Source: a virus
IMG/VR virus record: IMGVR_UViG_3300001351_001046
Span: 1-27,383 of that record
Length of the DNA: 27,383 bases
Direction: 5' to 3' (one strand)
Part shown: positions 9,044 through 26,428 of the stretch, piece by piece
Position numbering within the stretch: position 1 is the stretch's first letter
Layout of the letters: each line of letters starts with the position of its first letter
Notes under the pieces: generated by a model
Told to the model about the DNA's origin: nothing
Databases searched by the model: none
What the model saw: the letters and a program-made list of their open reading frames with translations, nothing else
Made by a program: the position numbers and the translations under genes

Positions 9044-9157
9044 ATGAAAGAATTTATCAAGTCAATTAAAGAAAATCCAAGAGAATTTAAAGAGAGTGTA
9101 TTGTTTATATCAACGGTATTTATATTGTTTTATTTTTCAATGTGGATTTTTTATTAA
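9044..9157 (+). CDS. 37-aa membrane peptide
   Basis: MKEFIKSIKENPREFKESV and then a hydrophobic aromatic helix (LFISTVFILFYFSMWIFY). First gene after the promoter-like box at 9009. Its TAA shares an A with the next ATG (TAATG), which supports it being translated. Cytoplasmic charged N-terminus and one membrane helix; function unknown. Confidence 0.55.
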   Translation: MKEFIKSIKENPREFKESVLFISTVFILFYFSMWIFY

Positions 9158-9675
9158 TGAATAACCCATACAACCCAACAACTACCAGAAAACAACTAGA
9201 TGTAAAGTTTTCTAAATTACGTAAACTAAAATACAACGCCTTTAGATGGTGGAGAATGTATGATAATCCTAATAAACCCCTAGATAATAGAGCACTATTT
9301 CGTGATCGTATATTAAATGGTGATTTTGATTATTCACATTACAAATACCAAGCAGATTGGTGTGAGCATGAAATGAATGACGTTGCTGCTAAGTATGGTG
9401 ATGATATAGGAAGATATGTTGAAGAAACATCATTATTACGTTCTCGTAGAAAACGTTTACTCGAGGATTTTGAAAAAGATGAAAATGGTAAATTAGAAAT
9501 GTTAATAAAGGCATTTACTGTTCATTTTAGATGTAATAAAGAACAAGTTTATGAAGAAATTTTCAAATGTAGTGGAGAACTGATAGATCTTTATTATATT
9601 ATAGAAGAGAAATACAAAATAGTCCATATGCCTTATCCTTTAAAGCGTAGAGGACGACCTAAAAAAGTTATATAA
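9157..9675 (+). CDS. 172-aa hypothetical protein with C-terminal AT-hook-like motif
   Basis: Starts at the ATG at 9157 that overlaps the previous stop; a GTG at 9142 in frame is not needed. Helical, charged protein, rich in Arg/Lys and aromatic residues (YNAFRWWRMYDN). It ends in LKRRGRPKKVI, where RGRP with flanking basic residues is the core of an AT-hook, a minor-groove binder of AT-rich DNA. Lies just upstream of a metallophosphoesterase and in the same operon as DpdA, so a DNA-associated role is plausible. No family recognised. Confidence 0.6.
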   Translation: MNNPYNPTTTRKQLDVKFSKLRKLKYNAFRWWRMYDNPNKPLDNRALFRDRILNGDFDYSHYKYQADWCEHEMNDVAAKYGDDIGRYVEETSLLRSRRKRLLEDFEKDENGKLEMLIKAFTVHFRCNKEQVYEEIFKCSGELIDLYYIIEEKYKIVHMPYPLKRRGRPKKVI

Positions 9676-10654: not shown

Positions 10655-10899
10655 AAGAACAAGAAATTAAAGATTTAGGATTTGAAGTACAACATGAAAC
10701 AGTGGAAAGCTCAGGACACGATACAGATTGGCATTACTATACACTTGATATAGGTGATATTTGTTTAATTACAAATTCTAATGATGAAGCAGTAAAGGAT
10801 GGATGGGAAGCATCTATATTTGACTTTCCATCTTGTGTAATTAAAAATATTGGTGATTTGAAAGCTTTAATTAACATTATGAAAAAGAATAGTATATGA
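10651..10899 (+). CDS. 82-aa hypothetical protein
   Basis: Small acidic protein, likely alpha/beta, with aromatic and His residues (SSGHDTDWHYYTLDIGD). No catalytic motif recognised. ATGA overlaps at both ends, immediately ahead of dpdA, put it in the same translational chain. Confidence 0.6.
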   Translation: MKEQEIKDLGFEVQHETVESSGHDTDWHYYTLDIGDICLITNSNDEAVKDGWEASIFDFPSCVIKNIGDLKALINIMKKNSI

Positions 10900-11687
10900 A
10901 AGTATCACACGAAGTACCCCGCTGTTTATTAACAGTATCCCCCGAGTTCAATGATTACGAATATATATTACCTCACTTGTTAGATCAAGATGAAGAATAT
11001 AAACAATATTTTTTAGATGCTAAAGCTAAAGGACGTTATATTGTAATGGACAATTCATTACATGAACTTGGAGAAGCATATAACAGTGAACGTTTATTAT
11101 ATTGGATTAATGAAATAGAACCAGATGAATTTATGGTACCTGATGTTTGGATGGATTGTCATCAAACAGCAGCACAAGCAAAGTACTGGCTTCAATTTAA
11201 ATTCCCAGAAAAAACTAAAAAGATAGCAGTAATTCAAGGTAAGGATAAAAACGACGCTTATTTATGTGCTGGGTTATTAAGGGAATTAGGTTACGATAAA
11301 TTATGTGTATCTTATGGTGCTACTTGGTATAACAATTTCTTCCCACACACCAATGTGGATATGGGAAAAGCATTAGGTAGAGTACGATTTGTACAAGGTT
11401 TATTAAATTTATCTCATTTAAAAGATGTTAAATTTCATTTATTAGGATGTGCAATACCTCAAGAATTTGGTTGGTATGACAATGATTCTCGAATAGAATC
11501 AATTGACACCTCAAACCCAATAATGGCTGCTTTAGAAGGTACTTGGTATAGTGAAAATGGTTTAAATTCTAAACCAAAGGCAAATATGAATGACTATTTT
11601 GATATAGGCTTTTCAAAGGTTGATTATCTAAATGTTAAATATAATGTAAATAAATTTAGAGAAATAGTTAAAAAACATATCACATAA
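10896..11687 (+). CDS. dpdA: DpdA-like DNA 7-deazaguanine transglycosylase
   Basis: 263 aa, related to the tRNA-guanine transglycosylase superfamily in its phage DpdA form. DpdA swaps guanine in DNA for a 7-deazaguanine base. Features I recognise: YIVMDNSLHELGE (residues 48-60, an active-site Asp at 52 in the position of the TGT DSGGFQ segment), KIAVIQGKDKN, LCVSYGA, and HLLGCAIPQEFGWY followed by IESIDTSNP, where the Asp may be the nucleophile. The zinc-site cysteines of bacterial TGT are absent and the protein is shorter than TGT (about 375 aa), as in phage DpdA. The presence of folE, queD, queE and queC downstream strongly supports this call. Last gene of the operon from 9044. Confidence 0.8.
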   Translation: MKVSHEVPRCLLTVSPEFNDYEYILPHLLDQDEEYKQYFLDAKAKGRYIVMDNSLHELGEAYNSERLLYWINEIEPDEFMVPDVWMDCHQTAAQAKYWLQFKFPEKTKKIAVIQGKDKNDAYLCAGLLRELGYDKLCVSYGATWYNNFFPHTNVDMGKALGRVRFVQGLLNLSHLKDVKFHLLGCAIPQEFGWYDNDSRIESIDTSNPIMAALEGTWYSENGLNSKPKANMNDYFDIGFSKVDYLNVKYNVNKFREIVKKHIT

Positions 11688-11692
11688 AACTA

Positions 11693-11723
11693 GGATACCC
11701 CATATATCTGTCGTATATTTACG
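11693..11723 (+). promoter_or_regulatory. Promoter-like module, best example
   Basis: GGATACCC, ten bases, TCGTATATTTACG. Followed by an A-rich leader ending in AAAAATAAAAGTTATG. Drives the genes at 11753-12644. Confidence 0.6.
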
Positions 11724-11752
11724 TATTAGAAACAATTAAAAAAATAAAAGTT

Positions 11753-11944
11753 ATGATGTCACTTTTCGATTACCAAGGTCACGCAGATAAAGACGGGACA
11801 GGATTAAAAGTTAATGCTTATGCCATGTTAAAAAAACAACCTTATAAAAAAAGGTTATTAGAGTTTAATGGTATGGAAGTATTTTTATATACCGAAGAAT
11901 TTCTAAAGGAATTTTTTGAAATCCAAGAAATTTTTAAGGCATAA
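11753..11944 (+). CDS. 63-aa hypothetical protein
   Basis: Starts at ATG 11753 or the adjacent ATG 11756. Contains MSLFDYQGHADKDGTG and a Lys-rich middle, with an acidic/aromatic end (YTEEFLKEFFEIQEIF). Soluble. First gene after the best promoter-like module and therefore likely highly expressed. No family recognised. Confidence 0.6.
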   Translation: MMSLFDYQGHADKDGTGLKVNAYAMLKKQPYKKRLLEFNGMEVFLYTEEFLKEFFEIQEIFKA

Positions 11945-11947
11945 ATT

Positions 11948-12457
11948 ATGGCAAATAGCAATAGAACAGAGATCTATATAGAAGGATCTAAAGAAGCAAT
12001 TGATAATTTTGTAGAACGATTTGAAAAGTGTCATAGTGGTCCTTACCCAAACCAAGAAGAAAACCCCCACATAGCAGATGAATTTGGGGCAGATGCTGAA
12101 TTATTTATTGATAAAGTTGGTTCAAAATGGATAGAAATTTGGGATGAGGGATTTTATCGCTCAAGTGATAATAGATGTGAAATCTATTTAGATTCAGCTT
12201 GGTATCCACCATCAGATATGATTTTAGAAATTTATAGACAAATGGCTGAAATTGATGATGAAATCAAAGTATCAGGTAAATACTGGGATGAAGGACATCA
12301 ACCAATAGGAGTATTCGAAGTATACTATGGGCAGATAATTTCGGAAGAACAAAGTATTGATGATGATGAAGATCAAGAATATTTTTGGGGTGATGTAATT
12401 GAACCTGCGTTCGAAATCCTCCAAGAGAGATTAGATAAAGTAATGAAAGAAATATAA
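11948..12457 (+). CDS. YubB-ferredoxin-like (DUF1281-type) protein
   Basis: 169 aa. Pattern includes a 60-80 region with KVGSKWIEIWDEG, then LDSAWYPPSDMILEIYRQM and a GVFEVYYG strand. The 'SAW-x-PP' segment followed by an amphipathic helix and a G-V-F strand resembles the YubB ferredoxin-like domain found on plasmids and phages, whose function is not known. The C-terminus is very acidic (SIDDDEDQEYF). The stop overlaps nothing but the next start is only one base away. Confidence 0.5.
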   Translation: MANSNRTEIYIEGSKEAIDNFVERFEKCHSGPYPNQEENPHIADEFGADAELFIDKVGSKWIEIWDEGFYRSSDNRCEIYLDSAWYPPSDMILEIYRQMAEIDDEIKVSGKYWDEGHQPIGVFEVYYGQIISEEQSIDDDEDQEYFWGDVIEPAFEILQERLDKVMKEI

Positions 12458-12458
12458 T

Positions 12459-12644
12459 ATGGCAGAATTTATAAGACACGCATTAGGTCTTTGTGGAGAG
12501 CACTACCATCCAAACCTATTGACACTTCTCATAGGAGGGGTTGGGTTTTCAACTATTTTTTCGTATGTTCGATCATATATAAAATGTAAAATTAATCAAG
12601 CGTTTGCCTATACGCAAAATACCTGGCAAAAATTAAATAAATAA
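12459..12644 (+). CDS. 61-aa single-pass membrane protein
   Basis: N-terminus MAEFIRHALGLCGEHYHPN is followed by a hydrophobic segment, LLTLLIGGVGFSTIFSYV (about residues 20-38), and a basic tail. The segment just before the helix, LCGEHYHP, concentrates Cys and His and could bind metal; that is inference. Last gene of the 11693 unit. Confidence 0.5.
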   Translation: MAEFIRHALGLCGEHYHPNLLTLLIGGVGFSTIFSYVRSYIKCKINQAFAYTQNTWQKLNK

Positions 12645-12649
12645 AAACA

Positions 12650-12676
12650 GGATTAGCCTATATCCATATAATACCT
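12650..12676 (+). promoter_or_regulatory. Degenerate promoter-like region before queC
   Basis: GGATTAGCC at 12650 and CCATATAATA at 12664 resemble the upstream box and the TATATT box but do not match the TCG core. An 11-base direct repeat AATACCTGGCA occurs near 12618 and again near 12670, flanking this region. Confidence 0.3.
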
Positions 12677-12700
12677 GGCAGTTATAAATTTAAATAAATT

Positions 12701-13585
12701 ATGAGTAAAACAAAAAAACATTGCGTAGTTAGTCTTTCAGGAGGAATGGATAGCAGCACATTACTATTAAGAGCATTAAAAGAATATGATACTGTAACAG
12801 GTATTTCATTTGATTATGGTCAAAAACACAGAGTAGAATTAGAAAGAGCTCAACAATTAGTAGATTATGTAAATAATAACCCTATGAGAGTATATCATCA
12901 TGACCATGCTGAAAATGGTTTTGAAGAAGTATATTCTAAAATTAATTACCGTCAAATTAAATTAGATGGTTTAGCAGATTTACTAGATTCAGCATTAGTT
13001 GAAGGTGGAGATGATGTTCCAGAGGGACATTATGAGAATGATAATATGAAAGAAACAGTTGTACCTAATAGGAATAAGATATTTGCTTCTATTACACAAG
13101 CTGTAGCATTATCCGTAGCAAATAAAACAGGAGAAAAATGTCATATTGCTTTGGGAGTACACGCCGGAGATTTTGAAGTTTATCCTGATTGTAGACAAGA
13201 ATTTAGAGATGCCGATGATACCGCTTTTAGAGAAGGTAACTGGAACGCTGATATGGTAGGATACTTTACACCTTATATCAAAGGTAATAAATTTACAATA
13301 TTACAAGATGGGGAAAAATTAGTTGAGGAACTAGGTTTATCATTTGATGAGGTGTACAAACGTACAAACACCTCATACAAACCATATCCTTCAGGTAACT
13401 CAGATTATAAATCAGCATCAAGTGTTGAACGTATTGAAGCATTTATCGAATTAGGAAGACGTGACCCCGTTCAATATGAAGATGAGAGTGGCGAAGTATC
13501 TTACGAAGTAGCAGAAGCACACGTAAGAGAAATACTTGCACAACATGGTAAAACCCATACTGTAGCTGTATTAGGAAGAGATTAA
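12701..13585 (+). CDS. queC: QueC-like 7-cyano-7-deazaguanine synthase without zinc cysteines
   Basis: Uses ATP and ammonia to convert 7-carboxy-7-deazaguanine (CDG) through the amide to preQ0. The N-type ATP-pyrophosphatase loop is SGGMDSS (residues 13-19), with FDYGQKHRVEL at about 37-47, VPNRNKIF at 121-128 and GVHAGD at 152-157, all QueC landmarks. Length 294 aa exceeds the usual 220-235; the extra part is C-terminal. The family's Cys4 zinc motif should lie in residues 222-243, but this stretch reads TNTSYKPYPSGNSDYKSASS with no Cys at all, while the flanking VERIEAF is kept. So the enzyme is either zinc-independent or altered in the nitrile-forming step. Lies between dpdA and queD. Confidence 0.85.
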   Translation: MSKTKKHCVVSLSGGMDSSTLLLRALKEYDTVTGISFDYGQKHRVELERAQQLVDYVNNNPMRVYHHDHAENGFEEVYSKINYRQIKLDGLADLLDSALVEGGDDVPEGHYENDNMKETVVPNRNKIFASITQAVALSVANKTGEKCHIALGVHAGDFEVYPDCRQEFRDADDTAFREGNWNADMVGYFTPYIKGNKFTILQDGEKLVEELGLSFDEVYKRTNTSYKPYPSGNSDYKSASSVERIEAFIELGRRDPVQYEDESGEVSYEVAEAHVREILAQHGKTHTVAVLGRD

Positions 13586-13601
13586 GAATGCATTTTCAAT
13601 A

Positions 13602-13635
13602 AGGGTATTCATATGTATAATAAAATGGATACCCT
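13602..13635 (+). promoter_or_regulatory. Hairpin around the first ATG of the HNH gene
   Basis: Inverted repeat AGGGTATTCAT (13602-13612) and ATGGATACCCT (13625-13635), 11 pairs with one G-T, loop of 12 bases. The loop contains an in-frame ATG (13613), and another ATG (13637) follows the stem by one base. No T-run, so a terminator is unlikely; control of HNH translation is possible. Confidence 0.45.
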
Positions 13636-13636
13636 C

Positions 13637-14035
13637 ATGAAAAAATGTATTGATTGTAAAAAAGAATTAGAATTAGAATCTTTTCCTTATGATAAAAGTA
13701 GAGACCGATACTTAAGCGTTTGTAAATCCTGTACTAGTAAGCGTACACAAGCTTATAGGCTTAAAAATAAGGATAAGTGGAGGGAATATGACAGAACCTC
13801 CAATAAAAAGTATAAACAAGTAATCAATGAATGGAAGTCTCAGGGTTGTAGTAAATGTGATGAAAAAAGACCTTGGGTTATAGACGCCCACCATTTAGAC
13901 CCAAATGAGAAGGATTTTATGGTTGGGGCAACAAAGAGGAGTATTAAAGTAGTAAAAGAAGAATTAAAAAAATGTATACCTTTATGTTCAAACTGTCATA
14001 GAGATTTACATTATAGAGAGACAGAAAAGCTGTAA
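13637..14035 (+). CDS. HNH homing-type endonuclease with zinc-binding cysteines
   Basis: About 132 aa from ATG 13637, with alternative in-frame ATGs at 13613 and 13625; the later start gives MKKCIDCKKELELESF, the usual beginning of this protein type. Two N-terminal CxxC pairs (CIDC and CKSC) form a zinc finger, then a basic helix, then the HNH nuclease: CSKC, VIDAHHLDPNEKDF, CIPLCSNCHRDLHY, with catalytic HH and the second zinc ligand pair. A free-standing mobile nuclease of the kind common in T4-like phages, inserted between queC and the tRNA array. A hairpin covers its start region. Confidence 0.85.
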   Translation: MKKCIDCKKELELESFPYDKSRDRYLSVCKSCTSKRTQAYRLKNKDKWREYDRTSNKKYKQVINEWKSQGCSKCDEKRPWVIDAHHLDPNEKDFMVGATKRSIKVVKEELKKCIPLCSNCHRDLHYRETEKL

Positions 14036-14134
14036 TAGATGATGGTGCTAAAAGGATGAAAAAAGGTTTGTAGTAATCCAAGCGTAAGCAAATCATTAAT
14101 CAGAAACCTTGAAAGACCCGAAACGTCTCTTTTC
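14036..14134 (+). other. Structured leader before the tRNA array
   Basis: No ORF or tRNA. It contains the inverted repeat AAGGTTT / AAACCTT and, at 14117-14137, CCCGAAA / TTTCGGG. The latter's 3' arm runs into the first three bases of tRNA-Ala, so the fold competes with the tRNA acceptor stem or guides processing of the array. Confidence 0.35.
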
Positions 14135-14208
14135 GGGGGATTAGCTCAGTTGGCTAGAGCGTCTGCTTTGCAAGCAGAAGGTCATCAGTTCGATTCTGAT
14201 ATTCTCCA
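14135..14208 (+). tRNA. tRNA-Ala (anticodon TGC)
   Basis: Acceptor GGGGGAT / ATTCTCC, D-arm GCTC/GAGC, anticodon stem TCTGC/GCAGA with loop TTTGCAA, T-arm ATCAG/CTGAT with loop TTCGATT. CCA is not encoded. Confidence 0.9.
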
Positions 14209-14212
14209 CATT

Positions 14213-14285
14213 GCTTCTGTAGCTCAGTTGGTAGAGCAGCTGATTTGTAATCAGCAGGTCGTCGGATCGTAGCCGGCCAGAAGCT
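14213..14285 (+). tRNA. tRNA-Thr (anticodon TGT) with unusual T-loop
   Basis: Acceptor GCTTCTG / CAGAAGC is perfect, D-stem GCTC/GAGC, anticodon stem GCTGA/TCAGC with loop TTTGTAA. T-stem GTCGG/CCGGC, but the loop is ATCGTAG instead of TTCGANT: the 54 and 58 positions are swapped to A and T. CCA not encoded. Confidence 0.85.
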
Positions 14286-14292
14286 CAAAATA

Positions 14293-14377
14293 GGAAGATT
14301 GGCAGAGTGGTCGAATGCGGCAGTCTTGAAAACTGTTGACTGTAACAGGTCCGGGGGTTCGAATCCCTCATCTTCCG
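14293..14377 (+). tRNA. tRNA-Ser (anticodon TGA)
   Basis: Acceptor GGAAGAT / ATCTTCC, anticodon loop CTTGAAA, long variable arm as in serine tRNAs, T-loop TTCGAAT in GGGGGTTCGAATCCCTC. The discriminator is G, as expected for Ser. Confidence 0.92.
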
Positions 14378-14382
14378 CAAAA

Positions 14383-14451
14383 TGTAGGTCCACATTGTGG
14401 ATATATGTTCCTTCATGGGATTAAGGATTGGGGGTTCCCGGTCGCCTACAG
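14383..14451 (+). tRNA. Degenerate tRNA-like element, possibly Pro (GGG)
   Basis: Fits the regular spacing of the array. Acceptor TGTAGGT / GCCTACA (seven pairs, one T-G), D-arm ACAT/ATGT with GG in its loop, and an anticodon arm CCTTC/TAAGG with loop ATGGGAT giving GGG, although the closing C-T pair fails. Only 17 bases lie between anticodon and acceptor stems, so variable region and T-arm are truncated. Could be a decaying tRNA or a tRNA-derived RNA. Confidence 0.45.
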
Positions 14452-14454
14452 TAA

Positions 14455-14527
14455 TGTCTTATGGTGTAATTGGTAACACGTCTCGTTTTGGTCGAGAAGA
14501 GTCTAGGTTCGAGACCTAGTGAGACAA
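14455..14527 (+). tRNA. tRNA-Gln (anticodon TTG)
   Basis: Acceptor TGTCTTA / TGAGACA, D-stem GTGT/ACAC, anticodon stem TCTCG/CGAGA with loop TTTTGGT, T-arm CTAGG/CCTAG with loop TTCGAGA. Last tRNA of the array; the next gene starts 15 bases on. Confidence 0.92.
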
Positions 14528-14542
14528 CTAAAATTAAAAGTT

Positions 14543-14707
14543 ATGAAAAAACAAGAATTACCAGATGCAAAAAAACATCAACAAATTAGCTTTATTAAAT
14601 CAGGAATCCGTTTATTAGGTTATGGAGCTTTATGGTTTAGCTTGGATATTGCAGTTATTTTACTTATATTGAGTGAAATAGTAGGAATAGGAGAAGAATT
14701 AGTATAA
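14543..14707 (+). CDS. 54-aa single-pass membrane protein
   Basis: Start at ATG 14543 after an AAATTAAAAGTTATG leader; an earlier GTG frame would run into tRNA-Gln. Charged N-terminus (MKKQELPDAKKHQQ), then a hydrophobic region from about residue 22 to 45 (YGALWFSLDIAVILLILSEI), acidic end. Function unknown. Confidence 0.5.
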   Translation: MKKQELPDAKKHQQISFIKSGIRLLGYGALWFSLDIAVILLILSEIVGIGEELV

Positions 14708-14716
14708 ATAATAATT

Positions 14717-14869
14717 ATGAGCAAAGAAATAGAAACTTACGTAAGAGAAAATTACAAAAAAACATTTGGTGATAAACCATTAATTATTGAAGAGAGAGAA
14801 TCATGTTATTTAGTATCAACTAGTAAGGATGATTCACCTTTAATTTTAAGTAAAAACATAAACAATTAA
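14717..14869 (+). CDS. 50-aa hypothetical protein
   Basis: MSKEIETYVRENYKKTFGDK followed by short beta-type stretches (LIIEE, YLVSTS, LILSKN). Preceded by TAATAATTATG and followed eleven bases later by the thioredoxin start. No family recognised; the regular spacing and start context support it. Confidence 0.5.
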   Translation: MSKEIETYVRENYKKTFGDKPLIIEERESCYLVSTSKDDSPLILSKNINN

Positions 14870-14879
14870 AATAAAAATT

Positions 14880-15122
14880 ATGAGTAAAATTTATTATTTT
14901 TCTGCGAACTGGTGTCAACCTTGTAAACAGTTAGCACCAACAATGGAAAGAAGTGGTCTACCATTTCAAAAAGTTAATGTAGATGAAGATTCAACTTTAT
15001 CAGCAAAATATGGAATTAGAAATGTTCCTACTTTAGTAAAAGTAGATAATAGTGGTAATGAAGTTAGTAGATTAGTAGGTAACAACCCACTAGAAAAAAT
15101 TCAAAGCTGGTATAATGGGTAG
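14880..15122 (+). CDS. Thioredoxin
   Basis: 80 aa, a compact cytoplasmic thioredoxin. Active site WCQPCK at residues 12-17, FQKVNVDED strand, and cis-Pro loop RNVPTLV near residue 50. Shorter than bacterial thioredoxins (about 105 aa), as in phage versions. A likely role is to reduce the C-terminal cysteine pair of the phage ribonucleotide reductase; this is inference from family use, because nrdA lies far away. It overlaps the next gene by eight bases. Confidence 0.9.
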   Translation: MSKIYYFSANWCQPCKQLAPTMERSGLPFQKVNVDEDSTLSAKYGIRNVPTLVKVDNSGNEVSRLVGNNPLEKIQSWYNG

Positions 15123-15390
15123 AACAGCAATAGATATAGTTTTAGAAGGAGTATCTAGTGGTAGTATAACCCAAGAAGATGCTAAAATTCTATTAGAAGT
15201 AATCAACCAAAAAGGAGGTAATACTTTTGTACCTGTACCTTACAGAGAAATAAACATACCAGATTGGACATACGATCCATATAGACCAGGTCAACCTTGG
15301 TATACAGTAACAAGTCATACATCTGGATATTCTCAAGCAGAAGGGACTACAGATAATCAACCAAAAACAACATTAACAACAAATGGGTAA
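15115..15390 (+). CDS. 91-aa hypothetical protein
   Basis: An N-terminal helical half (AIDIVLEGVSSGSITQEDAKILLEVINQ), then a Pro/Tyr/Trp-rich half (VPYREINIPDWTYDPYRPGQPWY) and a Thr-rich end. The second half looks disordered or adhesive rather than enzymatic. It overlaps thioredoxin and queD by eight bases each, so it is firmly part of the thioredoxin-queD-queE transcription unit. No family recognised. Confidence 0.55.
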   Translation: MGRTAIDIVLEGVSSGSITQEDAKILLEVINQKGGNTFVPVPYREINIPDWTYDPYRPGQPWYTVTSHTSGYSQAEGTTDNQPKTTLTTNG

Positions 15391-15850
15391 ATTTCAATCA
15401 AGTAAAGTATTTGACGGGTTTAGTACAGTATTTCGTCAACACAATGCAGGAAGTACTCATTGTAGGTTTGTACATGGTTATGGTATATCATTTAAAGTCT
15501 ACTTTGAAGGTGAATTAGATGATCGTAATTGGGTTTGGGATTTTGGTGGTATGAAAAGAGCTAAAACTCAAATCGATGGTATGTCTCCAAAAGAATATTT
15601 CGATTTTATGTTTGACCACACTATGATTATAGCAGAAGATGACCCATTTAAGGTAGCTTTTATAGAAATGGGAGAGGCAGGAGCAGCACAAGTAAGAATT
15701 ATACCAGCTACAGGAGCAGAAAAATTTGCTGAATTTATATTTAACAAGGTTAACCCTTTCGTATTAGAAGAAACAAATGGTAGAGTTAGAGTTACTAAGG
15801 TTAAATTTATGGAGCATGGTAAAAATGCAGCATATTACGTAGAAGATTAA
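15383..15850 (+). CDS. queD: QueD-like 6-carboxytetrahydropterin synthase (variant metal motif)
   Basis: 155 aa, second step of the 7-deazaguanine route: dihydroneopterin triphosphate to 6-carboxytetrahydropterin. It has FSTVFRQHNAGSTHCRFVHGYG at the place of the QueD zinc/catalytic segment, with C27 and H31; the usual HGH is HGY (Y33) and the early His is replaced by Phe, while extra His (20, 26) are nearby. WVWDFGGMKRAK and FDFMFDHTMIIAEDDP are typical of this family's longer, Trp/Asp-Phe-Gly-Gly subfamily. Its N-terminus overlaps the preceding gene and it lies just ahead of queE, which supports the call. Confidence 0.8.
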   Translation: MGKFQSSKVFDGFSTVFRQHNAGSTHCRFVHGYGISFKVYFEGELDDRNWVWDFGGMKRAKTQIDGMSPKEYFDFMFDHTMIIAEDDPFKVAFIEMGEAGAAQVRIIPATGAEKFAEFIFNKVNPFVLEETNGRVRVTKVKFMEHGKNAAYYVED

Positions 15851-15881
15851 TATAATAGTGAAACAACCACATTAAAAAATT

Positions 15882-16670
15882 ATGGAACATAAAAAATTAA
15901 AAAGGGTAGAGGATTACGATAAAGTTCTACCGATTGTTGAGGTTTACACAGCAGTTCAATCAGAAGGATCAAGAGCAGGTTACCCTACAGTAGTTATTAG
16001 AACCACAGGATGCACGCATCGTTGTTATTTCGGTGAGGGTGGATGGTGTGATTCTTTTTATACTTCAATTCACCCAGAAAAAGGTAAGTATACATTCCAA
16101 TCAATAATTGATATGTACAAAGCAAACCCCCATATCAAAGAAATGATGTTAACGGGAGGCTCACCTACAATGATACCTCACTTAGTTAACGAATTAACAC
16201 ATTTTGCACATGAGAATGGTATTTTTATTACTATCGAAACTGAGGGATCTCATTTCCTCGCCACAGACTATCCTATTCATTTGTTATCTATTAGTCCTAA
16301 GTTTTCTAATTCTGTTCCTGTCTTAGGAGTAGAAACACCTCAAGGTGCTATCACAGACCAAAAAATGATTGATAGACATAATAAGCTTAGACTTAATTAT
16401 AAAGCTATGTCTGACATGATGTCCTACCACCCAGATTATCATATCAAACCAGTATGGGATGGTAAAGATGAAAAGACATTAGAGGAAATTTTAACTTTTA
16501 TTAAAGTTATGGATATACCTCAAGATAAAGTATGGTTTATGCCTGCTGGAGATTCAAGAGAGGGTCTATTTAAATCTTACCCTTTAGTATTTGATTGGGT
16601 TAGAGATAATGGTTATAGAATGACTTGGAGGCCTCACATAATAGCCTTCCAAGACCTTCGGGAGGTGTAG
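15882..16670 (+). CDS. queE: QueE 7-carboxy-7-deazaguanine synthase (radical SAM)
   Basis: 262 aa. Converts 6-carboxytetrahydropterin to CDG using SAM and a 4Fe-4S cluster. The family start is clear: VEVYTAVQSEGSRAGYPTVVIRTTGC. The cluster cysteines are C44, C48 and C56, a CX3CX7C spacing rather than the radical-SAM CX3CX2C, because YFGEGGW is inserted before the third Cys. The SAM-binding LTGGSPTM follows near residue 95, and an IETEGSH strand and LSISPKFSNS agree with QueE. Followed by a promoter-like module and folE. Confidence is high for family, lower for reaction details. Confidence 0.88.
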   Translation: MEHKKLKRVEDYDKVLPIVEVYTAVQSEGSRAGYPTVVIRTTGCTHRCYFGEGGWCDSFYTSIHPEKGKYTFQSIIDMYKANPHIKEMMLTGGSPTMIPHLVNELTHFAHENGIFITIETEGSHFLATDYPIHLLSISPKFSNSVPVLGVETPQGAITDQKMIDRHNKLRLNYKAMSDMMSYHPDYHIKPVWDGKDEKTLEEILTFIKVMDIPQDKVWFMPAGDSREGLFKSYPLVFDWVRDNGYRMTWRPHIIAFQDLREV

Positions 16671-16671
16671 T

Positions 16672-16700
16672 GGATACCCAAATAAAGTTTCGTATATTAT
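16672..16700 (+). promoter_or_regulatory. Promoter-like module before folE
   Basis: GGATACCC, ten bases, TCGTATATTAT, then a leader with AAATAAAAAGTTATATCAATG. Same architecture as 11693. Confidence 0.55.
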
Positions 16701-16721
16701 ATTAAATAAAAAGTTATATCA

Positions 16722-17414
16722 ATGGAAAATAGAAGAAAACTCCACGAACAGTTAGAAGTGGTACAAGAGGGATTCGCAAACGGTGTAGCACCAGGATTCC
16801 CATTTAATGATGAACAAAAATTAGCAATGATTGAGGAAGCTGAAGAAGCTTATGGTAAGTTTTTAACAGCACTAAAATGTGATTGGAGAAATGACCCAAA
16901 TTCAGCAGAAACTCCAAGACGCGTAGCAAAGGCATATGTAAATGATTTATGGGCTGGTAGATACACTCAAATGTCCCCTATCACTTCATTCCCATCAGAT
17001 GGTTATGATGGTATTATTATAGAACGTAATATACCGTTAACTTCAATGTGTTCTCATCACCACCAAACAATAGATGGTGTTGTTCATATTGGATACATAG
17101 CAGGAGAAGATGGACAAGTAATTGGTTTATCTAAACTAAATAGAATTGTAGAGTTATTTGGTAGAAGAGGAGCAATACAAGAACAATTAACATCAGCTAT
17201 TCACAATGCCGTAGAAAAAATTACTGAAGGTAATAAAGGTGTTATTGTTACTATAGTAGCAGGACACAATTGTGTTTCATGTAGGGGTGTTAAACACCAA
17301 GGTGCTTCAATGGTAACCACCAAAGTATCTGGTGTGTTTAAAGATAATGATAATGTAGCTAGAAAAGAATTTTTTGATAGCTTAAAAATTAATAACGGAG
17401 GACATAACATATAA
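16722..17414 (+). CDS. folE: GTP cyclohydrolase I
   Basis: 230 aa. Opens GTP to dihydroneopterin triphosphate, the entry step of the 7-deazaguanine pathway. Hallmarks: ETPRRVAKAY (residues 63-72), SMCSHHHQTIDG (C110, H112, H113), GLSKLNRIVE, FGRRGAIQEQLT, and HNCVSCRGVKHQGASM with C184/C187. These include the zinc ligands and the catalytic His. A phage with queD, queE, queC and dpdA nearby uses it to raise the precursor supply for base modification rather than for folate. First gene of a unit that continues to 18663. Confidence 0.95.
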   Translation: MENRRKLHEQLEVVQEGFANGVAPGFPFNDEQKLAMIEEAEEAYGKFLTALKCDWRNDPNSAETPRRVAKAYVNDLWAGRYTQMSPITSFPSDGYDGIIIERNIPLTSMCSHHHQTIDGVVHIGYIAGEDGQVIGLSKLNRIVELFGRRGAIQEQLTSAIHNAVEKITEGNKGVIVTIVAGHNCVSCRGVKHQGASMVTTKVSGVFKDNDNVARKEFFDSLKINNGGHNI

Positions 17415-17419
17415 GAGAA

Positions 17420-17920
17420 ATGGCATTAAAAGCAGATAATAAAATATTTTTAAGTTGGATTGATGTAAATGATGCAGTTGATAACTTATGTGATAAAATT
17501 CGACATGACCAACCTAATATAGATTCAATCCATGGTATTGCTAGAGGGGGGTTAATCCCCGCTGTCTTAATATCACATAAACTAGGTTTACCTTGGACTG
17601 ATGCTATATTACCTAATACTCTAGTAGTTGATGATATATGCGATTCAGGAGTTACTCTAGAAAAATCCCCAGGGGTTTATACCGCTGTATTACATTATAA
17701 ACCTCATACATCTTGTTTTAAACCAACTCTTTGGTCTAAGATACATGAAGGGGATGAATGGCTTATTTACCCTTGGGAGACTAAAAATTCAGATCCCATA
17801 CAAGATTATTTAAAAGAAGATAAGATATGGTATGATGGTAATTATATTGCGGGTATGACGAATGACAAAGAAGGGTCATTTATGAAATTTCAAAATAAAA
17901 TAAAAACTAAAAATAAATAA
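17420..17920 (+). CDS. Phosphoribosyltransferase-like protein
   Basis: 166 aa, type I PRTase fold: IHGIARGGLIPAVLISHKLG near residues 38-58 and the PRPP loop LVVDDICDSGVTLE near residues 69-82 with the two Asp. C-terminal half has EWLIYPWETK, often seen in xanthine/hypoxanthine-type PRTases. It would join PRPP to a purine-like base. Six bases after folE, so a link to salvage or to the deazapurine pathway is possible; substrate cannot be read from sequence. Confidence 0.8.
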   Translation: MALKADNKIFLSWIDVNDAVDNLCDKIRHDQPNIDSIHGIARGGLIPAVLISHKLGLPWTDAILPNTLVVDDICDSGVTLEKSPGVYTAVLHYKPHTSCFKPTLWSKIHEGDEWLIYPWETKNSDPIQDYLKEDKIWYDGNYIAGMTNDKEGSFMKFQNKIKTKNK

Positions 17921-17923
17921 ATT

Positions 17924-18121
17924 ATGAATTATTGGCAAGTAGACGTAAAGTTAACAATGGAACATGAAAGTGGCAAAATCCAAAAAGTAACAGAAAAATA
18001 CCTAGTAGAAGCAGTATCACCAACAGATGCAGAAGCTAAAGTATACAAAGATTTTGAAGGTGAAAGTAATTTTACAGTAGACAAAATCGTAAAAACAAAA
18101 ATTATTAAAATTATATCTTAA
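17924..18121 (+). CDS. DUF4494-like protein
   Basis: 65 aa. WQVDVKLTMEHESG, then QKVTEKYLVEAVSPTDAEAKVY and a final beta strand, closely resembling the short DUF4494 family of Bacteroidetes, whose function is not known. Good support for the host group. Its stop shares an A with the next start (TAATG). Confidence 0.7.
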   Translation: MNYWQVDVKLTMEHESGKIQKVTEKYLVEAVSPTDAEAKVYKDFEGESNFTVDKIVKTKIIKIIS

Positions 18122-18663
18122 TGAGTAATCAATTAAGTTTATTTAGCGAAGCAGATGTGCCTTTTGTTAATGAAGTAGAAATATTTAACGGCACATTCGG
18201 TAAACCAAATAATTATGAACCAAACATACCAGAAAAAAAAGAATGGCAATTCGTTTACGACTTCGTACTCGAAGAACTTGAAGAATATAAAGAAGCTTGC
18301 GAAAAAGGAAACATCGTGGAAGTTTTGGACGCTTTGTGCGATATTGCTTATGTTTCCCTTGGGAACGGTACTATGTTACACGGTCTTAAAGATAAGATAT
18401 GGCCAGCTTATCAAGAAGTACAAGCAAGTAATATGTCAAAAGCTTGCGTATCTGAGAAAGAAGCCTTGGATACCGTCAGCTTACGAAGTAAGGAACAAGG
18501 TGAGGCCTGCCATTTTACGAAACTTGAGGAAGGACGGTATATTGTCTATAGATCTAGAGACAAAAAAGTAATGAAAAATGTTAATTACTTTAGACCTGAC
18601 TTATCGCAATTCTTTACAACTGAGGAATTGGCTAAAAATTATTTAGCAGAAACGATTATATAA
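18121..18663 (+). CDS. MazG-like nucleoside triphosphate pyrophosphohydrolase
   Basis: 180 aa. All-alpha NTP-PPase signature EELEEYKEA followed by EVLDALCDIAYVSLG (E-x-x-D), the metal-binding pattern of MazG/HisE-type enzymes. QASNMSKAC with following Glu continues a pattern seen in the Bacteroidetes branch. Hydrolyses NTPs or dNTPs to monophosphates; phage MazG proteins can clean nucleotide pools or alter the stringent response, both possible here. The N-terminal MSNQLSLFSE tail resembles a clamp- or SSB-interacting end only loosely. Confidence 0.75.
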   Translation: MSNQLSLFSEADVPFVNEVEIFNGTFGKPNNYEPNIPEKKEWQFVYDFVLEELEEYKEACEKGNIVEVLDALCDIAYVSLGNGTMLHGLKDKIWPAYQEVQASNMSKACVSEKEALDTVSLRSKEQGEACHFTKLEEGRYIVYRSRDKKVMKNVNYFRPDLSQFFTTEELAKNYLAETII

Positions 18664-18719: not shown

Positions 18720-20480
18720 ATGTATAAGAAAGCATATACTGGTAATAAATTAAAACATTTAGGTCCTAATTGGGTTGAAATCCACCTTTGGGAAGAGGAT
18801 AAAGGACATCAAATAGTACCTTACAACAACATAGCATACCAGGAATGTACTGAAGAAGAACAAACACATACTGGGTTAAATGGTGAGCCTCTTAAACCAA
18901 TATCTAAATGGTTTTTTTCTAAAAACCCTGATTACAGTTCTAAGAATACCCCAAATTTACATTTCCACGATATGAAACCCCATCAAAAGTTTCTAGTTGA
19001 AAAATATGGTGTAAACGATGTTCCTTCTAAAGGGCATAGAGAAGTGTTTTTTGATATTGAGTGTGAAATAGGGGGTGCTTTAACTGAAGAATATATTGAA
19101 GATGCACCAATGCCTATTACCTCTATTGCTTGGTGGGATAAACAAAAAGATTATTGGTCTATTCTTATTTTAGATAAAAAAAGTCAACTAAAACATACAA
19201 AAACGGGAGAAAACAAGAATAAAGAAATTATACCTTGTGCTACTGAAAATGAATTGTTAGCTAAATTTGTTGAAGCAATAAGAGAAATGGATCCTGATAT
19301 TTTAGTAGGATACAATTCAGATTATTTTGATATTCCTTATTTGTACTACAGAATGTGTAGAACAATAGGTAAAGATTGGGCTGATCATTTATCTCCTATT
19401 GGTAAAGTTAATTCAAAAAAGGGTAACAAATATTTCTTTAAACAAAATCAATATGTAGATATTGTAGGTATTGAATCATTAGATTATATTCGTTTACATA
19501 AAAAATATAGTTGGAAGGATGAACCAAGTTGGAAGTTAGATGCTATTGGAGCCAAATATGTTGGTATGAATAAGGTTGAATATGAAGGAAACCTAGATCA
19601 ATTATTCGAAACAGATATCCATAAATTTATTCAGTATAACTTTGTTGATGTAGAAATACTTCAAAAATTAGATGAAAAATTACAATATTTAGCTTTAACT
19701 AAAAATATAGCACACAAAGGAAAACACAATTACAGTGAAGTGTATGCTAATAGTATTTCACAAGATGGAGCAATTTCAGCTTATTTATTATCCCAAGATA
19801 TAATTCCTCCCCCAAAAGAACCTAATCCACAAAAGAAAGAATCGTATGCAGGAGGATACCTTTTTTGTCCCAAAGCAGGATTGTATAAATATATGTTTGA
19901 TGAGGATTTAACATCGCTGTATCCGTCTATAATAATGTCTATAAACATAGGTAAGGAAACATTCGTGGGTCGTATTGTAGATGCTAATGAACGTAATAAT
20001 AGACTGGGACTTAACGATTTAAAGGAACGTGATCCTGAAGAATTATTATTAGTTGAAAACGGCAAACGTAGACAAACTAATGTTAAAGTAAGTGACTTAA
20101 TTAATATAATTGAATCCCAAAAGTTAGCTGTAGCAGCTAATGGCTCAATGTTTAGAACAGACAAAGAAGCAGTATTATCTACTATTCTTAAAAAATGGTT
20201 TGAAGAACGAGTTATTTATAAAACCCGTATGAAAAAAGCATATAAAGCCGGTGATAAAGAATTAGGTGAATATAATCATTTAATGCAGTACACCATGAAA
20301 ATTTTGCTGAATTCACTCTATGGTGCGACAGCTTTACCAAGCTTTAGGTATGGAATGAATTTCCAAACATTAAGTGAAGCAATCACATTATCAGGACACA
20401 GAATTATTCAAGAATCAGCTTTATGTGCTAATAGACACATGAATAAAGTTATGAAGGGTCTAATTCAATTAGATATATAA
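18720..20480 (+). CDS. 43A: DNA polymerase, family B (gp43), N-terminal fragment
   Basis: 586 aa carrying the N-domain, the 3'-5' exonuclease and most of the palm/fingers. Exonuclease residues: D112 and E114 in FFDIECE, which agree in numbering with T4 gp43; GYNSDYFDIPYLYYR; YNFVDVEILQKLD. Polymerase motif A is FDEDLTSLYPSI (near residue 395) and motif B KILLNSLYGA (near 527). It then stops after VMKGLIQLDI without motif C. The missing YxDTDS and thumb are encoded at 21940. Together the pieces give 897 aa, nearly the length of T4 gp43 (898). Not a simple frameshift, since 1.46 kb with four genes lies between. Confidence 0.92.
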   Translation: MYKKAYTGNKLKHLGPNWVEIHLWEEDKGHQIVPYNNIAYQECTEEEQTHTGLNGEPLKPISKWFFSKNPDYSSKNTPNLHFHDMKPHQKFLVEKYGVNDVPSKGHREVFFDIECEIGGALTEEYIEDAPMPITSIAWWDKQKDYWSILILDKKSQLKHTKTGENKNKEIIPCATENELLAKFVEAIREMDPDILVGYNSDYFDIPYLYYRMCRTIGKDWADHLSPIGKVNSKKGNKYFFKQNQYVDIVGIESLDYIRLHKKYSWKDEPSWKLDAIGAKYVGMNKVEYEGNLDQLFETDIHKFIQYNFVDVEILQKLDEKLQYLALTKNIAHKGKHNYSEVYANSISQDGAISAYLLSQDIIPPPKEPNPQKKESYAGGYLFCPKAGLYKYMFDEDLTSLYPSIIMSINIGKETFVGRIVDANERNNRLGLNDLKERDPEELLLVENGKRRQTNVKVSDLINIIESQKLAVAANGSMFRTDKEAVLSTILKKWFEERVIYKTRMKKAYKAGDKELGEYNHLMQYTMKILLNSLYGATALPSFRYGMNFQTLSEAITLSGHRIIQESALCANRHMNKVMKGLIQLDI

Positions 20481-21545: not shown

Positions 21546-21943
21546 TGGTAAAAGGGGTTATAGCAGGTAATTTTGATGTAATGCATCCGGGTTATATAGC
21601 AATGTTTAAAGAAGCATCAGCTAATTGTGATTGCTTAGTAGTAATGTTACATACAGACCCTTCTAAAGAACGACCTGAGAAACTTAAACCTATATTAAGT
21701 GTAGAGGAGCGTAAAGCAATGTTACTCTCTCTTATTTATGTTGAGGATGTAGTAAGGTATACTTACGAAGGTCAACTATTAGATTTGTTAAAATACGGTG
21801 AATTTGACGTTAGGTTTTTAGGTGACGATTATATTAATAAACCCTTTACAGGTGATAATCTACCGATTAATGTGTATTATCTTAATAGAGACCATGGTTG
21901 GTCAACAACAAAATTTAAAAAATTAATATTACAGTCAATATGA
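21545..21943 (+). CDS. Cytidylyltransferase-family nucleotidyltransferase
   Basis: 132 aa. Nucleotidyltransferase fold: GNFDVMHPGYIAMFKEA (residues 8-24; HxGH is altered to HPGY), VVMLHTDPSKE, SVEERKAMLLSL, FLGDDYI and the closing STTKFKKL, as in glycerol-3-phosphate cytidylyltransferase or the HldE-type domain. It would charge a sugar- or alcohol-phosphate with a nucleotide. The changed second His of the signature may lower or alter activity. Ends by overlapping the polymerase C-part start by four bases (ATGA). Confidence 0.8.
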   Translation: MVKGVIAGNFDVMHPGYIAMFKEASANCDCLVVMLHTDPSKERPEKLKPILSVEERKAMLLSLIYVEDVVRYTYEGQLLDLLKYGEFDVRFLGDDYINKPFTGDNLPINVYYLNRDHGWSTTKFKKLILQSI

Positions 21944-22875
21944 AACATTTAGAAGAAACACCTTGGTGGATTTGTGATGCAGATGATGAGAATTATTGTG
22001 CTTATGTAGACACGGATTCTAATTATTTTAATGCTGAACCGTTGCTTCTTAAACTATACCCTAATTTTGAAGAGCTTACTGATAAAGAAAAAGATGATAT
22101 TCTGGAAAAAATAGCATTGAAATATCAAGATATTATCAATGAAGATTATGATAGATTAGCACGTGAAGCATTTAATGTTACTGAACATAGACTTGAAATG
22201 AAAACCGAATGTGTTATCCGTTCAGCCTATTTTAGAGCAACAAGACGTTATGCACAATGGATTACAAAGCAAGAAGGTATTGAAAACGAAACACTAGACA
22301 TTAAAGGTTTAGAGTTTATGAAAGCAAATTTCCCACCTATTTTAGGATCATTTTTTAATGATATATTACAACAAGTATTAAAGGGTGAAGAAAAAGCTAG
22401 TATATTAGATCAAATAAAAGTATTTAAAAAGTCTATACTAGATGGTTCAATCCCACTTGCTAAGTTAGGTAATCCATCAGCAATTAAAAAATTAGAAAAA
22501 TACTCAGGTAAGAGTACTAGAGCCGGAGAAATGTTTACTGAAATCCTTAAAGGTGCCCCCGCACCGGTAAGAGCAACAGTTCGTTATAATGATTTATTGA
22601 GACTATGGCAGTTAGATAAAAAACATAATTTAATTACACAAGCGGATAAAGTTAAATTTATATACTTAAAAGATAACCCATATAAAATTGAGGCATTAGC
22701 CTTCCAAGACTATGATATCCCTGAAAAGGTAAATGATTTTCTAGAAAGATATGCCGATAGACAGAAAGTATTTGATTCAATATTATTAAATAAATTAGAA
22801 GGGTTTTTTTCGGACTTGCAATGGTCTTTAGATTTAAATCCTTACACAAATGCATTAGCATCCTTTGAGATATAA
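21940..22875 (+). CDS. 43B: DNA polymerase, family B (gp43), C-terminal fragment
   Basis: 311 aa. Begins just ahead of motif C, YVDTDSNYF, with D24 and D26 as catalytic metal ligands, then a basic RATRRYAQWI stretch equivalent to the KKRY region, and the thumb. The C-terminus ends NPYTNALASFEI. Needs the N-part (18720) for all other active-site residues, so the two must assemble. Its start overlaps the cytidylyltransferase stop by ATGA, which makes translation of the C-part depend on the inserted genes. Confidence 0.92.
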   Translation: MKHLEETPWWICDADDENYCAYVDTDSNYFNAEPLLLKLYPNFEELTDKEKDDILEKIALKYQDIINEDYDRLAREAFNVTEHRLEMKTECVIRSAYFRATRRYAQWITKQEGIENETLDIKGLEFMKANFPPILGSFFNDILQQVLKGEEKASILDQIKVFKKSILDGSIPLAKLGNPSAIKKLEKYSGKSTRAGEMFTEILKGAPAPVRATVRYNDLLRLWQLDKKHNLITQADKVKFIYLKDNPYKIEALAFQDYDIPEKVNDFLERYADRQKVFDSILLNKLEGFFSDLQWSLDLNPYTNALASFEI

Positions 22876-24224: not shown

Positions 24225-24548
24225 ATGTCAGAAACAAAACGAAGAAAATCAATTCAATCCATTACCGACCCTCTATTAGAACCATTTTTTATTACAAAAG
24301 ATGAATACAGTTATACTGTAAAACAAAATGTAACATCAGATGCTTCACATTTTAGATCTAAAGGTAATGCTAAAACCTATGAAAAATCATTGTATTATTT
24401 TACAAGTTTAGGGCAGGCATTAACTAAAATAGCAAGTTTACAAGCTGATTTAGAGGATGTAACATCACTACAAGAATATATTGAAAATTACGAACAAATA
24501 AGTACTAACATTAAAAACTATACAGATGGCATTAGAAGCATTGTTTGA
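24225..24548 (+). CDS. 107-aa hypothetical protein ahead of groES
   Basis: SITDPLLEPFFITKDEYSYTVKQNV near the N-terminus, then a basic Ser/Lys region and a helical end (LTKIASLQADLEDVTSLQEYI). No family assigned. It overlaps groES by 23 bases, so the two are translationally coupled, and the gene is the first of the chaperonin operon. Confidence 0.6.
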   Translation: MSETKRRKSIQSITDPLLEPFFITKDEYSYTVKQNVTSDASHFRSKGNAKTYEKSLYYFTSLGQALTKIASLQADLEDVTSLQEYIENYEQISTNIKNYTDGIRSIV

Positions 24549-24822
24549 TGCAGTTATCGTTAAACCGATAGAAGCAGAAGAAACCACATATGGTGGTATT
24601 ATTGTCCCAGATATTGGGAAAGAAAAAAATGAAACAGGTGAGGTTATAGCAATCGGCCCTGGTAAACCAACGATTACAGGAGAATTTATAGCTACCCAAC
24701 TACAGATTGGAGACAAAGTTATACTACCTACAATGGGATTCACAAAATTACCTTATGACGGTGATGAATACTATGTAGGGCCTGAAAATCAAATCTTAGC
24801 AAAAATTATAGAAAATGAGTAA
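24526..24822 (+). CDS. groES: Co-chaperonin GroES
   Basis: 98 aa, the normal GroES length. DAVIVKPIEAEETTYGGIIVPD includes the mobile loop (about residues 17-32), then GEVIAIGPGK and GDKVILP strands typical of the family, and a C-terminal strand AKIIENE. It caps the GroEL ring. Overlaps groEL by eight bases. T4 supplies only a GroES substitute (gp31) and uses host GroEL; here both are encoded. Confidence 0.93.
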   Translation: MALEALFDAVIVKPIEAEETTYGGIIVPDIGKEKNETGEVIAIGPGKPTITGEFIATQLQIGDKVILPTMGFTKLPYDGDEYYVGPENQILAKIIENE

Positions 24823-26428
24823 ACAAGTTACATTAGGAGCAGAAGCTCGGAAAAATTTAGTAAAGGGTATTGATATATTAGCAGATGCTGTAGTATCAAC
24901 CTTAGGACCAAATGGTAGAAACGTAGTTATTGCAAATGATCAAGGAGCACCACAATCAACTAAAGATGGTGTTACAGTAGCAAAATCTATTTCTCTTAGC
25001 AACCCAGAACAAGAATTAGGGGTACAGTTAGTAAAACAAGCTGCTATTAAAACAGCCGAAAAAGCAGGAGATGGTACAACAACTTCCACTTTGTTAGCAC
25101 GTGAAATGATTAAAGCAGGATTAAATGCCTTAAATAATGATGAAAATGCTGTTCAAATTAAACGTGATATAGATAAGGCGGTTACTGAAGTAGTTGCAAA
25201 TCTTAAAAAGAATGTCTCTGAAGATATTTCAAGTGAAGAACAATTAGAACAAGTAGCTAGTATTTCTGCTAATAACGACCCTGAAGTAGGTAAGTTAATT
25301 GCAACAGCCATTGAGAAAGTTGGAATGGAAGGAGTTGTTCATATTGAGGAATCTCGTACTGGAGAAACTTATTTAGAGACAGTTGAAGGTATGCAGTTTG
25401 ATAGGGGTTATAAATCTCCTTACTTTGTTACTAATAACAATACAATGTCAGCTACATTAGAAGCTCCTTTAATTTTACTATCAGAAAATAAGATCACTCA
25501 GGTAAAAGAATTATTACCCATTTTAGAAGCAGTTTCTTCTCAAGGAAAATCACTTTTGATTATTGCCGAAGATATTGATCAAGAAGCATTAGCTACTCTG
25601 ATTGTAAATAAGATGAGAGGTACAATGAAAGTATGTGCTGTTAAAGCCCCAGAGTTTGGTGATAGACGTAAATTAATCTTAGAAGATATTGCTACAACAA
25701 CAGGTGGTCAAGTGTTTTCTAGAGATAAAGGTATGAAATTAGACAAATTCTCTTGGGAATGGTTTGGTGAAGCTAGAACAGTAACTGTTGAGAAAGAACA
25801 AACAACTATTGTTGATGGTAAAGGTACAGAAGAAGATATCAATCAAAGAGTTGAAGAATTACAAAAACAACTAGAAAAATCTCAAACACCTTTCGAAACC
25901 GAAAAGTTACAAGAACGTTTAGCTAAGTTTGTTGGGGGAGTTGCTATTATTCATGTAGGTGGAAACACTGAAACGGAAATGAAAGAAAAGAAAGATAGAG
26001 TTGATGATGCTCTACATGCTACAAAAGCAGCAATTGAAGAAGGTATTATCCCTGGTGGTGGAATGGCATTATTATATGCTTCTCAAGACATAAAATCAGA
26101 TTCAACTGGAGCTAGTATTGTAAAAAAAGCATGTAGAAAACCATTTAACCAAATCTTAGTTAATGCCGGTTATGATAATACCCAAGCAGAAATTTTAGCA
26201 TCAAAGTTAATTGATTCTAATAACACTTGGGATGGTTATAACATCAAAACCGAAGAAGTAGTTAATATGAAAGAAGCAGGGATTATTGATCCTACTAAAG
26301 TAGCTAGAACAGCATTACAAAATGCAGCTTCAGTAGCAGGTACTGTTTTATTAACTGAGTGTACAGTAGTGAATGAACCGAGTGAAGACTCACAAGCAAT
26401 AGATCCATCAATGATGATGGGGATGTAA
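24815..26428 (+). CDS. groEL: Chaperonin GroEL
   Basis: 537 aa, near the bacterial 540-548. STLGPNGRNVV, DGVTVAKSI, GDGTTTSTLLAREM (the ATP-site Asp), PEFGDRRKLILEDIA, EGIIPGGGMALLYA and the Met-rich tail DPSMMMGM are all standard. Forms the folding chamber, probably for abundant capsid proteins. Complete reading frame; nothing suggests decay. Confidence 0.96.
   Translation: MSKQVTLGAEARKNLVKGIDILADAVVSTLGPNGRNVVIANDQGAPQSTKDGVTVAKSISLSNPEQELGVQLVKQAAIKTAEKAGDGTTTSTLLAREMIKAGLNALNNDENAVQIKRDIDKAVTEVVANLKKNVSEDISSEEQLEQVASISANNDPEVGKLIATAIEKVGMEGVVHIEESRTGETYLETVEGMQFDRGYKSPYFVTNNNTMSATLEAPLILLSENKITQVKELLPILEAVSSQGKSLLIIAEDIDQEALATLIVNKMRGTMKVCAVKAPEFGDRRKLILEDIATTTGGQVFSRDKGMKLDKFSWEWFGEARTVTVEKEQTTIVDGKGTEEDINQRVEELQKQLEKSQTPFETEKLQERLAKFVGGVAIIHVGGNTETEMKEKKDRVDDALHATKAAIEEGIIPGGGMALLYASQDIKSDSTGASIVKKACRKPFNQILVNAGYDNTQAEILASKLIDSNNTWDGYNIKTEEVVNMKEAGIIDPTKVARTALQNAASVAGTVLLTECTVVNEPSEDSQAIDPSMMMGM

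Follow-up and report, generated by a model that had tools for sequence, protein, structure and literature searches.

Do the 7-deazaguanine genes clustered in the 27,383-base IMG/VR virus record IMGVR_UViG_3300001351_001046 (the window, i.e., the whole stretch of DNA analysed) serve to modify the DNA of the phage that carries them and, if so, which base do they deliver? We found that FolE, QueD, QueE and QueC are encoded here together with a short DpdA, predicted to act as a DNA-guanine transglycosylase. The phage DNA is very probably modified, as suggested by the fold, catalytic residues and kinship of DpdA and by the conservation of the module, and 7-cyano-7-deazaguanine (preQ0) seems the likeliest base. 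A preliminary description of this DNA, which had named these five genes and proposed that the phage modifies its guanines, was right in substance: all five are plus-strand open reading frames (ORFs), the family matches of the four synthesis genes are clear and the modification stands as a supported prediction. It mentioned neither the HNH endonuclease, four tRNAs and thioredoxin located between QueC and QueD, nor the phosphoribosyltransferase and the MazG-like gene that follow FolE. The features of the module are:

10896..11687, + strand: DpdA, short (263 amino acids), immuto/Firehammervirus family (fold model, structure matches, aligned Asp)
11049-11051 and 11505-11507, + strand: putative catalytic Asp52 and Asp204 of DpdA, respectively (alignment of 27 sequences)
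12701..13585, + strand: QueC, 7-cyano-7-deazaguanine synthase without the zinc-site cysteines (PF06508, 2.5e-37; 3BL5, Z 17.1)
13364..13435, + strand: QueC residues 222-245, where the C(x)8CxxCxxC motif has been lost, now TNTSYKPYPSGNSDYKSASSVERI (cysteine comparison)
14880..15122, + strand: thioredoxin-like gene, conserved module member (PF00085, 6e-14; kept in both phage types)
15383..15850, + strand: QueD, phage-type, with HGYG motif (phrog_2389, 1.2e-35; PF01242, 2e-13; alignment)
15882..16670, + strand: QueE, radical SAM 7-carboxy-7-deazaguanine synthase (phrog_2076, 6.9e-51; C-x3-C-x7-C cluster motif)
16722..17414, + strand: FolE, GTP cyclohydrolase I (PF01227, 1.3e-43)
17420..17920, + strand: GpT-type purine phosphoribosyltransferase, proposed guanine-recycling partner (PRK09177, 3.9e-11, below cut-off; 1VDM, 2.8e-11)
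18121..18663, + strand: MazG-like nucleotide pyrophosphohydrolase, conserved neighbour (phrog_671, 1.3e-27)

No Pfam or NCBIfam family matches the DpdA-like protein above a curated cut-off, and its only strong family match is phrog_19058 (3.9e-41), a family without a named function. A phmmer search against PDB sequences returned nothing, and fold comparison alone succeeded. The AlphaFold2 model, built from 57 viral sequences (predicted local distance difference test, pLDDT, 94.8; predicted template modelling score 0.91), finds its best PDB matches in tRNA-guanine transglycosylases (TGTs) and the bacterial DpdA 7UI4 (Foldseek E 6.5e-7 and 8.8e-7), with Z of 16.6-17.1 over about 230 residues, i.e., a TGT-like TIM-barrel fold. 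D52 and D204, equated with TGT D102 and D280 by motif position, not by coordinates, are retained in 27/27 aligned sequences, the distant DpdA of Pseudomonas phage Iggy included. Sequence kin comprise the DpdA of Flavobacterium phage immuto and proteins of Campylobacter Firehammervirus, Chryseobacterium, Weizmannia and Bacillus phages, mostly without a functional name; identity with the CP220-group proteins reaches 36% over 98% of the length, and the deep branches of the tree are long and unsure, so that nothing here depends on them. In the phage neighbourhoods that we opened, preQ0 genes lie near the DpdA relatives, those of CP220 being located elsewhere in its genome. The family placement of DpdA, a point at which the preliminary description might have failed, thus speaks for it in fold, catalytic residues and kinship, and we regard the gene as encoding a predicted short DNA-guanine transglycosylase, supported by both sequence and model. 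This offers a function for a DpdA gene labelled "hypothetical" in most phage records that hold a relative. In one related locus (L091:9022-9804, G030), the DpdA gene is disrupted by in-frame stops.

A DpdA3 subfamily was reportedly named by Cui et al. in 2023 and tied to complete replacement; the literature that we searched contained nothing relevant on DpdA3 or DpdL. In CP220 and CPt10, 100% of deoxyguanosine (dG) is replaced by the deoxynucleoside of 7-amido-7-deazaguanine (ADG), dADG, according to a citation in PMC8306585, and a 2019 survey grouped the Campylobacter phages among those without DpdA (PMC6884629). Since these closest functionally known relatives of the window DpdA replace all dG, full replacement is a better prediction than partial replacement; by kinship with them, and from the phosphoribosyltransferase pattern described below, we consider it reasonably probable that the window phage does the same.

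The genes that supply the base retain their signature residues. In alignments with relatives, the active-site residues C27, D78 and H79 of QueD, a PTPS-family protein by its PF01242 match, are invariant, as are QueE C44, C48 and C56, spaced C-x3-C-x7-C, and the FolE zinc-ligand residues C110, H112, H113 and C184. The HGY motif of QueD was considered as a peculiarity of this lineage, a notion rejected by the alignment, which shows the protein to be the common phage QueD. Elsewhere, a phage-like contig of a Bacilli metagenome-assembled genome (MAG) encodes a 592-amino-acid QueE-like ORF (L333:435-2213) with an apparent intein just past the radical SAM cysteine motif.

QueC departs from its canonical form. 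The known enzymes carry SGGxDS, YxQxHxxE, VPxRN and YPDC motifs and an essential Y189, and a C(x)8CxxCxxC zinc motif counts as their hallmark (PMC13329287). The window QueC retains all four of the former motifs and the tyrosine equivalent to Y189, but its expected C(x)8CxxCxxC site reads SYKPYPSGNSDYKSASS, so that all four hallmark cysteines are lost. The best structure match of its model is B. subtilis 3BL5 (Z 17.1, residues 5-254), at a mean pLDDT of only 79.2. The loss extends across the phage lineage, immuto included, and the four-cysteine motif is absent from the phage clade. The cysteines are also missing from nearly all of the nearest cellular relatives, which come from Pirellulaceae, Marine Group II archaea, Cysteiniphilum, Thiotrichales and Legionella gresilensis; those sampled group in a single supported clade, with the phage proteins nested inside it. 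The QueC of Iggy has also lost the cysteines, yet it is placed elsewhere in the tree. In 12 cellular genomes of the clade, the zinc-site-less QueC is the sole full-length PF06508 protein; TGT was found in 12/12 of them and QueF in 9/9 bacteria and 0/3 archaea, and in one bacterial locus (L263) queF immediately precedes the QueC gene. Being the only full-length QueC beside TGT and, in bacteria, QueF, the protein probably still produces preQ0. The simplest reading of this gene co-occurrence is a functional preQ0 synthase that probably converts 7-carboxy-7-deazaguanine (CDG) to preQ0 without the canonical zinc site. We found no description of the clade in the literature searched, many relevant papers being outside its reach. 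With a large natural QueC clade lacking the hallmark motif in phages as well as in two domains of life, what the metal does in the enzyme can be put to a direct test.

IMG/VR relatives keep the order DpdA-QueC-thioredoxin-QueD-QueE-FolE-phosphoribosyltransferase-MazG-polymerase, and since the same set recurs in this order in dozens of contigs, it is not a chance assembly. These loci fall into two DpdA types, the window type and the immuto type, which have the core genes in common. Immuto-type loci encode QueF in 48/59 and a formyltransferase in 51/59 cases, while either gene was found in 0/68 de-duplicated window-type loci. The preliminary description had noted that QueF is missing from the window, which we confirm; nor does it appear in any of 13 longer window-type records (up to 138.7 kb), in contrast to 10/10 immuto-type records searched whole. 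ArcS (PF17884) and GATase_7 (PF13537) were likewise found in 0/13 of these window-type records. A single site is occupied by either FolE or FolE2, exactly one of them being present in 94/94 loci that span QueE to MazG. The two types, sharing a core and differing in QueF and formyltransferase, constitute a natural pair for finding the genes that set the final base. In a third DpdA type (L156, L129; G011:29551-29706, G021:11034-11183), a protein of 213-219 amino acids with weak similarity to QueF lies within a few kb of DpdA. Upstream of the window DpdA, positions 9142-9675 encode a 177-amino-acid protein without Pfam or PHROG match, found near DpdA in 62 window-type and 0 immuto-type loci. The small ORF that follows DpdA (11753-11944) has no family match; its relatives, with a motif like SLFDYLG, adjoin DpdA or QueF in related phages.

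The phosphoribosyltransferase next to FolE carries a phosphoribosyl pyrophosphate (PRPP) motif, VVDDICDSG, and a C-terminal EWLIYPWE, both conserved and aligned to 1VDM and GpT-2; it thus combines the PRPP-binding motif and the C-terminal W..xPW(E/D) that define the GpT type. It is present in 86/94 loci spanning QueE to MazG. Searches with three different queries against 50,697 phage records retrieved homologues from immuto, the Cellulophaga phiST group, Campylobacter Firehammervirus, Brevundimonas MaInes/StAshley, Synechococcus BUCT-ZZ01, the PA5oct/Paride group and a few unannotated records. All the named groups have 7-deazaguanine genes, for PA5oct also according to PMC7824862, so the association is almost exclusive. 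The gene adjoins folE in the Brevundimonas phages and in the phage-like contig of the Bacilli MAG (L333), and lies within the Que operon of BUCT-ZZ01. Since DpdA should free one guanine per insertion and FolE spends one GTP per base, salvaging guanine next to FolE would explain the arrangement economically, and with guanine as the predicted substrate we see about even odds that the enzyme recycles what DpdA ejects. A text search, with most subscription journals outside its scope, found no paper linking this phosphoribosyltransferase to 7-deazaguanine. The link provides a simple and testable fate for the guanine ejected when a phage replaces guanines.

Taken together, these results lead us to propose that the segment equips a marine phage of Bacteroidota type to place a 7-deazaguanine in its DNA. 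FolE, QueD and QueE would convert GTP to CDG, which the zinc-site-less QueC would carry through the amide to preQ0, and the short DpdA of the immuto/Firehammervirus family would put the free base in the place of guanine once the DNA is made. Each insertion would eject one guanine and each new base would cost one GTP; the GpT-type phosphoribosyltransferase may turn the ejected guanine into guanosine monophosphate (GMP), closing the loop. As a whole, we give this explanation a probability of roughly 0.75. If the cycle is real, DpdA ejects guanine, the phosphoribosyltransferase makes GMP from it and FolE uses the resulting GTP for the next 7-deazaguanine. The wider proposition, that zinc is dispensable for QueC across phages, planctomycetes, Marine Group II archaea and gammaproteobacteria and, jointly, that guanine-replacing phages run a closed guanine cycle, we advance only tentatively and hold to be rather doubtful.

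Several observations weigh against this explanation. The window is a genome fragment, and a tailoring gene could sit elsewhere in the phage. The phosphoribosyltransferase is absent from 8/94 spanning loci, and one 55.7-kb gut record has it without QueD. In two relatives (L020 and L021), the usual QueC gives way to a four-cysteine enzyme of canonical type accompanied by a class-II amidotransferase (PF13522, below cut-off); this gene content means that the final base may differ between relatives, some of which may make deoxyarchaeosine (dG+). Finally, CP220, with its related DpdA, has dADG and not the preQ0 deoxynucleoside.

The last point bears on the strongest alternative, in which the same module ends in dADG, either because QueC halts at the amide or because DpdA takes ADG from the pathway. 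Apart from the full dADG replacement in CP220/CPt10, whose DpdA is 36% identical (cited in PMC8306585), it draws on ADG being a known QueC intermediate (PMC13329287). Yet the lost zinc site and the amide do not go together: we rejected the idea that the lost site signals ADG output because the QueC of CP220 retains all four cysteines, while that of immuto has lost them despite the presence in immuto of QueF, an enzyme that acts on preQ0; moreover, cellular zinc-site-less members coexist with QueF. As QueC is present, and QueF, formyltransferase and the archaeosine enzyme were not found in window-type phages, we rank preQ0 first, with a slight leaning in its favour, and ADG second and on balance unlikely. 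The preliminary description had listed preQ0, the amide and the carboxy form as candidates. The first two hold in this order; the carboxy form is unlikely, as QueC is present, its clade acts like a preQ0 synthase in cells and the enzyme would have to be idle.

Far less probable is entry through the nucleotide pool, with the phosphoribosyltransferase making a 7-deazaguanine nucleotide that is then reduced, phosphorylated and polymerised, and DpdA playing a minor part. Genes for the phosphoribosyltransferase, the MazG-like hydrolase and ribonucleotide reductase are all in the window, and for Campylobacter phages an earlier proposal invoked modified dGTP (PMC6884629). Nevertheless, the lineage keeps a DpdA with full fold and both catalytic Asp, and the same DpdA family occurs in the Campylobacter phages themselves. 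Also set against this route, dADG phosphates were reportedly not found by Crippen et al. in 2019. It is similarly improbable, if anything slightly more so, that, for want of its zinc site, the phage QueC no longer works as a preQ0 synthase, the host supplying preQ0 or CDG being inserted. The loss of all four cysteines of the hallmark motif would fit, but the gene is widely kept with its remaining catalytic motifs invariant, it is the sole full-length QueC in the 12 cellular genomes, and the model keeps the QueC fold up to residue 254. Least credible is that the pathway supplies queuosine for host tRNA rather than phage DNA, as raised in the 2019 survey for phages with Que genes but without DpdA (PMC6884629), since the module includes a dedicated DpdA, whose family is retained in phages with fully modified DNA, and QueF, required for queuosine, was not found in window-type phages.

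As for the neighbouring genes, an HNH endonuclease (13613-14035) lies between QueC and the tRNAs; missing from all de-duplicated related phage loci, it is probably a recent mobile insertion. The four tRNAs (Ala, Thr, Ser, Gln) are clustered within the module at 14135-14528. The family-B DNA polymerase consists of two ORFs (18720-20480 and 21940-22875) with about 1.5 kb of other genes in between; its halves are gapless in two relatives (L040 and L042) and 0.2-1.7 kb apart in the others compared. Further downstream, a GroES-like ORF (24526-24822) and a GroEL-like ORF (24815-26428) follow the module, and immuto likewise has annotated GroES and GroEL after its own.

Compared with known systems, the window shares the four-enzyme preQ0 route and a DNA-guanine transglycosylase with phages 9g, CAjan and Rosebush (DpdA/DpdA2; PMC6884629), but these possess another DpdA branch and partial replacement, and 9g uses Gat-QueC for dG+ (PMC6884629). 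The canonical QueC of B. subtilis (3BL5) and E. coli, from PF06508 cluster 1, has the fold (Z 17.1 to 3BL5), the four sequence motifs and the essential Tyr in common with the window protein, from which it differs in the C(x)8CxxCxxC zinc motif. Campylobacter Firehammervirus CP220/CPt10 (100% dADG) share a related DpdA (36%), the preQ0 genes and the phosphoribosyltransferase; in contrast, their QueC is the canonical four-cysteine enzyme, their genes are scattered, their QueD is of another kind and their host is Campylobacter. Flavobacterium phage vB_FspM_immuto_2-6A shares the core genes (identity of 69% for QueC, 68% for QueD and 35% for DpdA), the zinc-site-less QueC, the phosphoribosyltransferase and MazG. 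It differs in having QueF, a formyltransferase and a family-A polymerase, whereas window-type phages lack these near the module and encode a family-B polymerase. The module thus belongs to a known kind of system, phage 7-deazaguanine DNA modification, its lineage carrying a version of the immuto module that lacks QueF.

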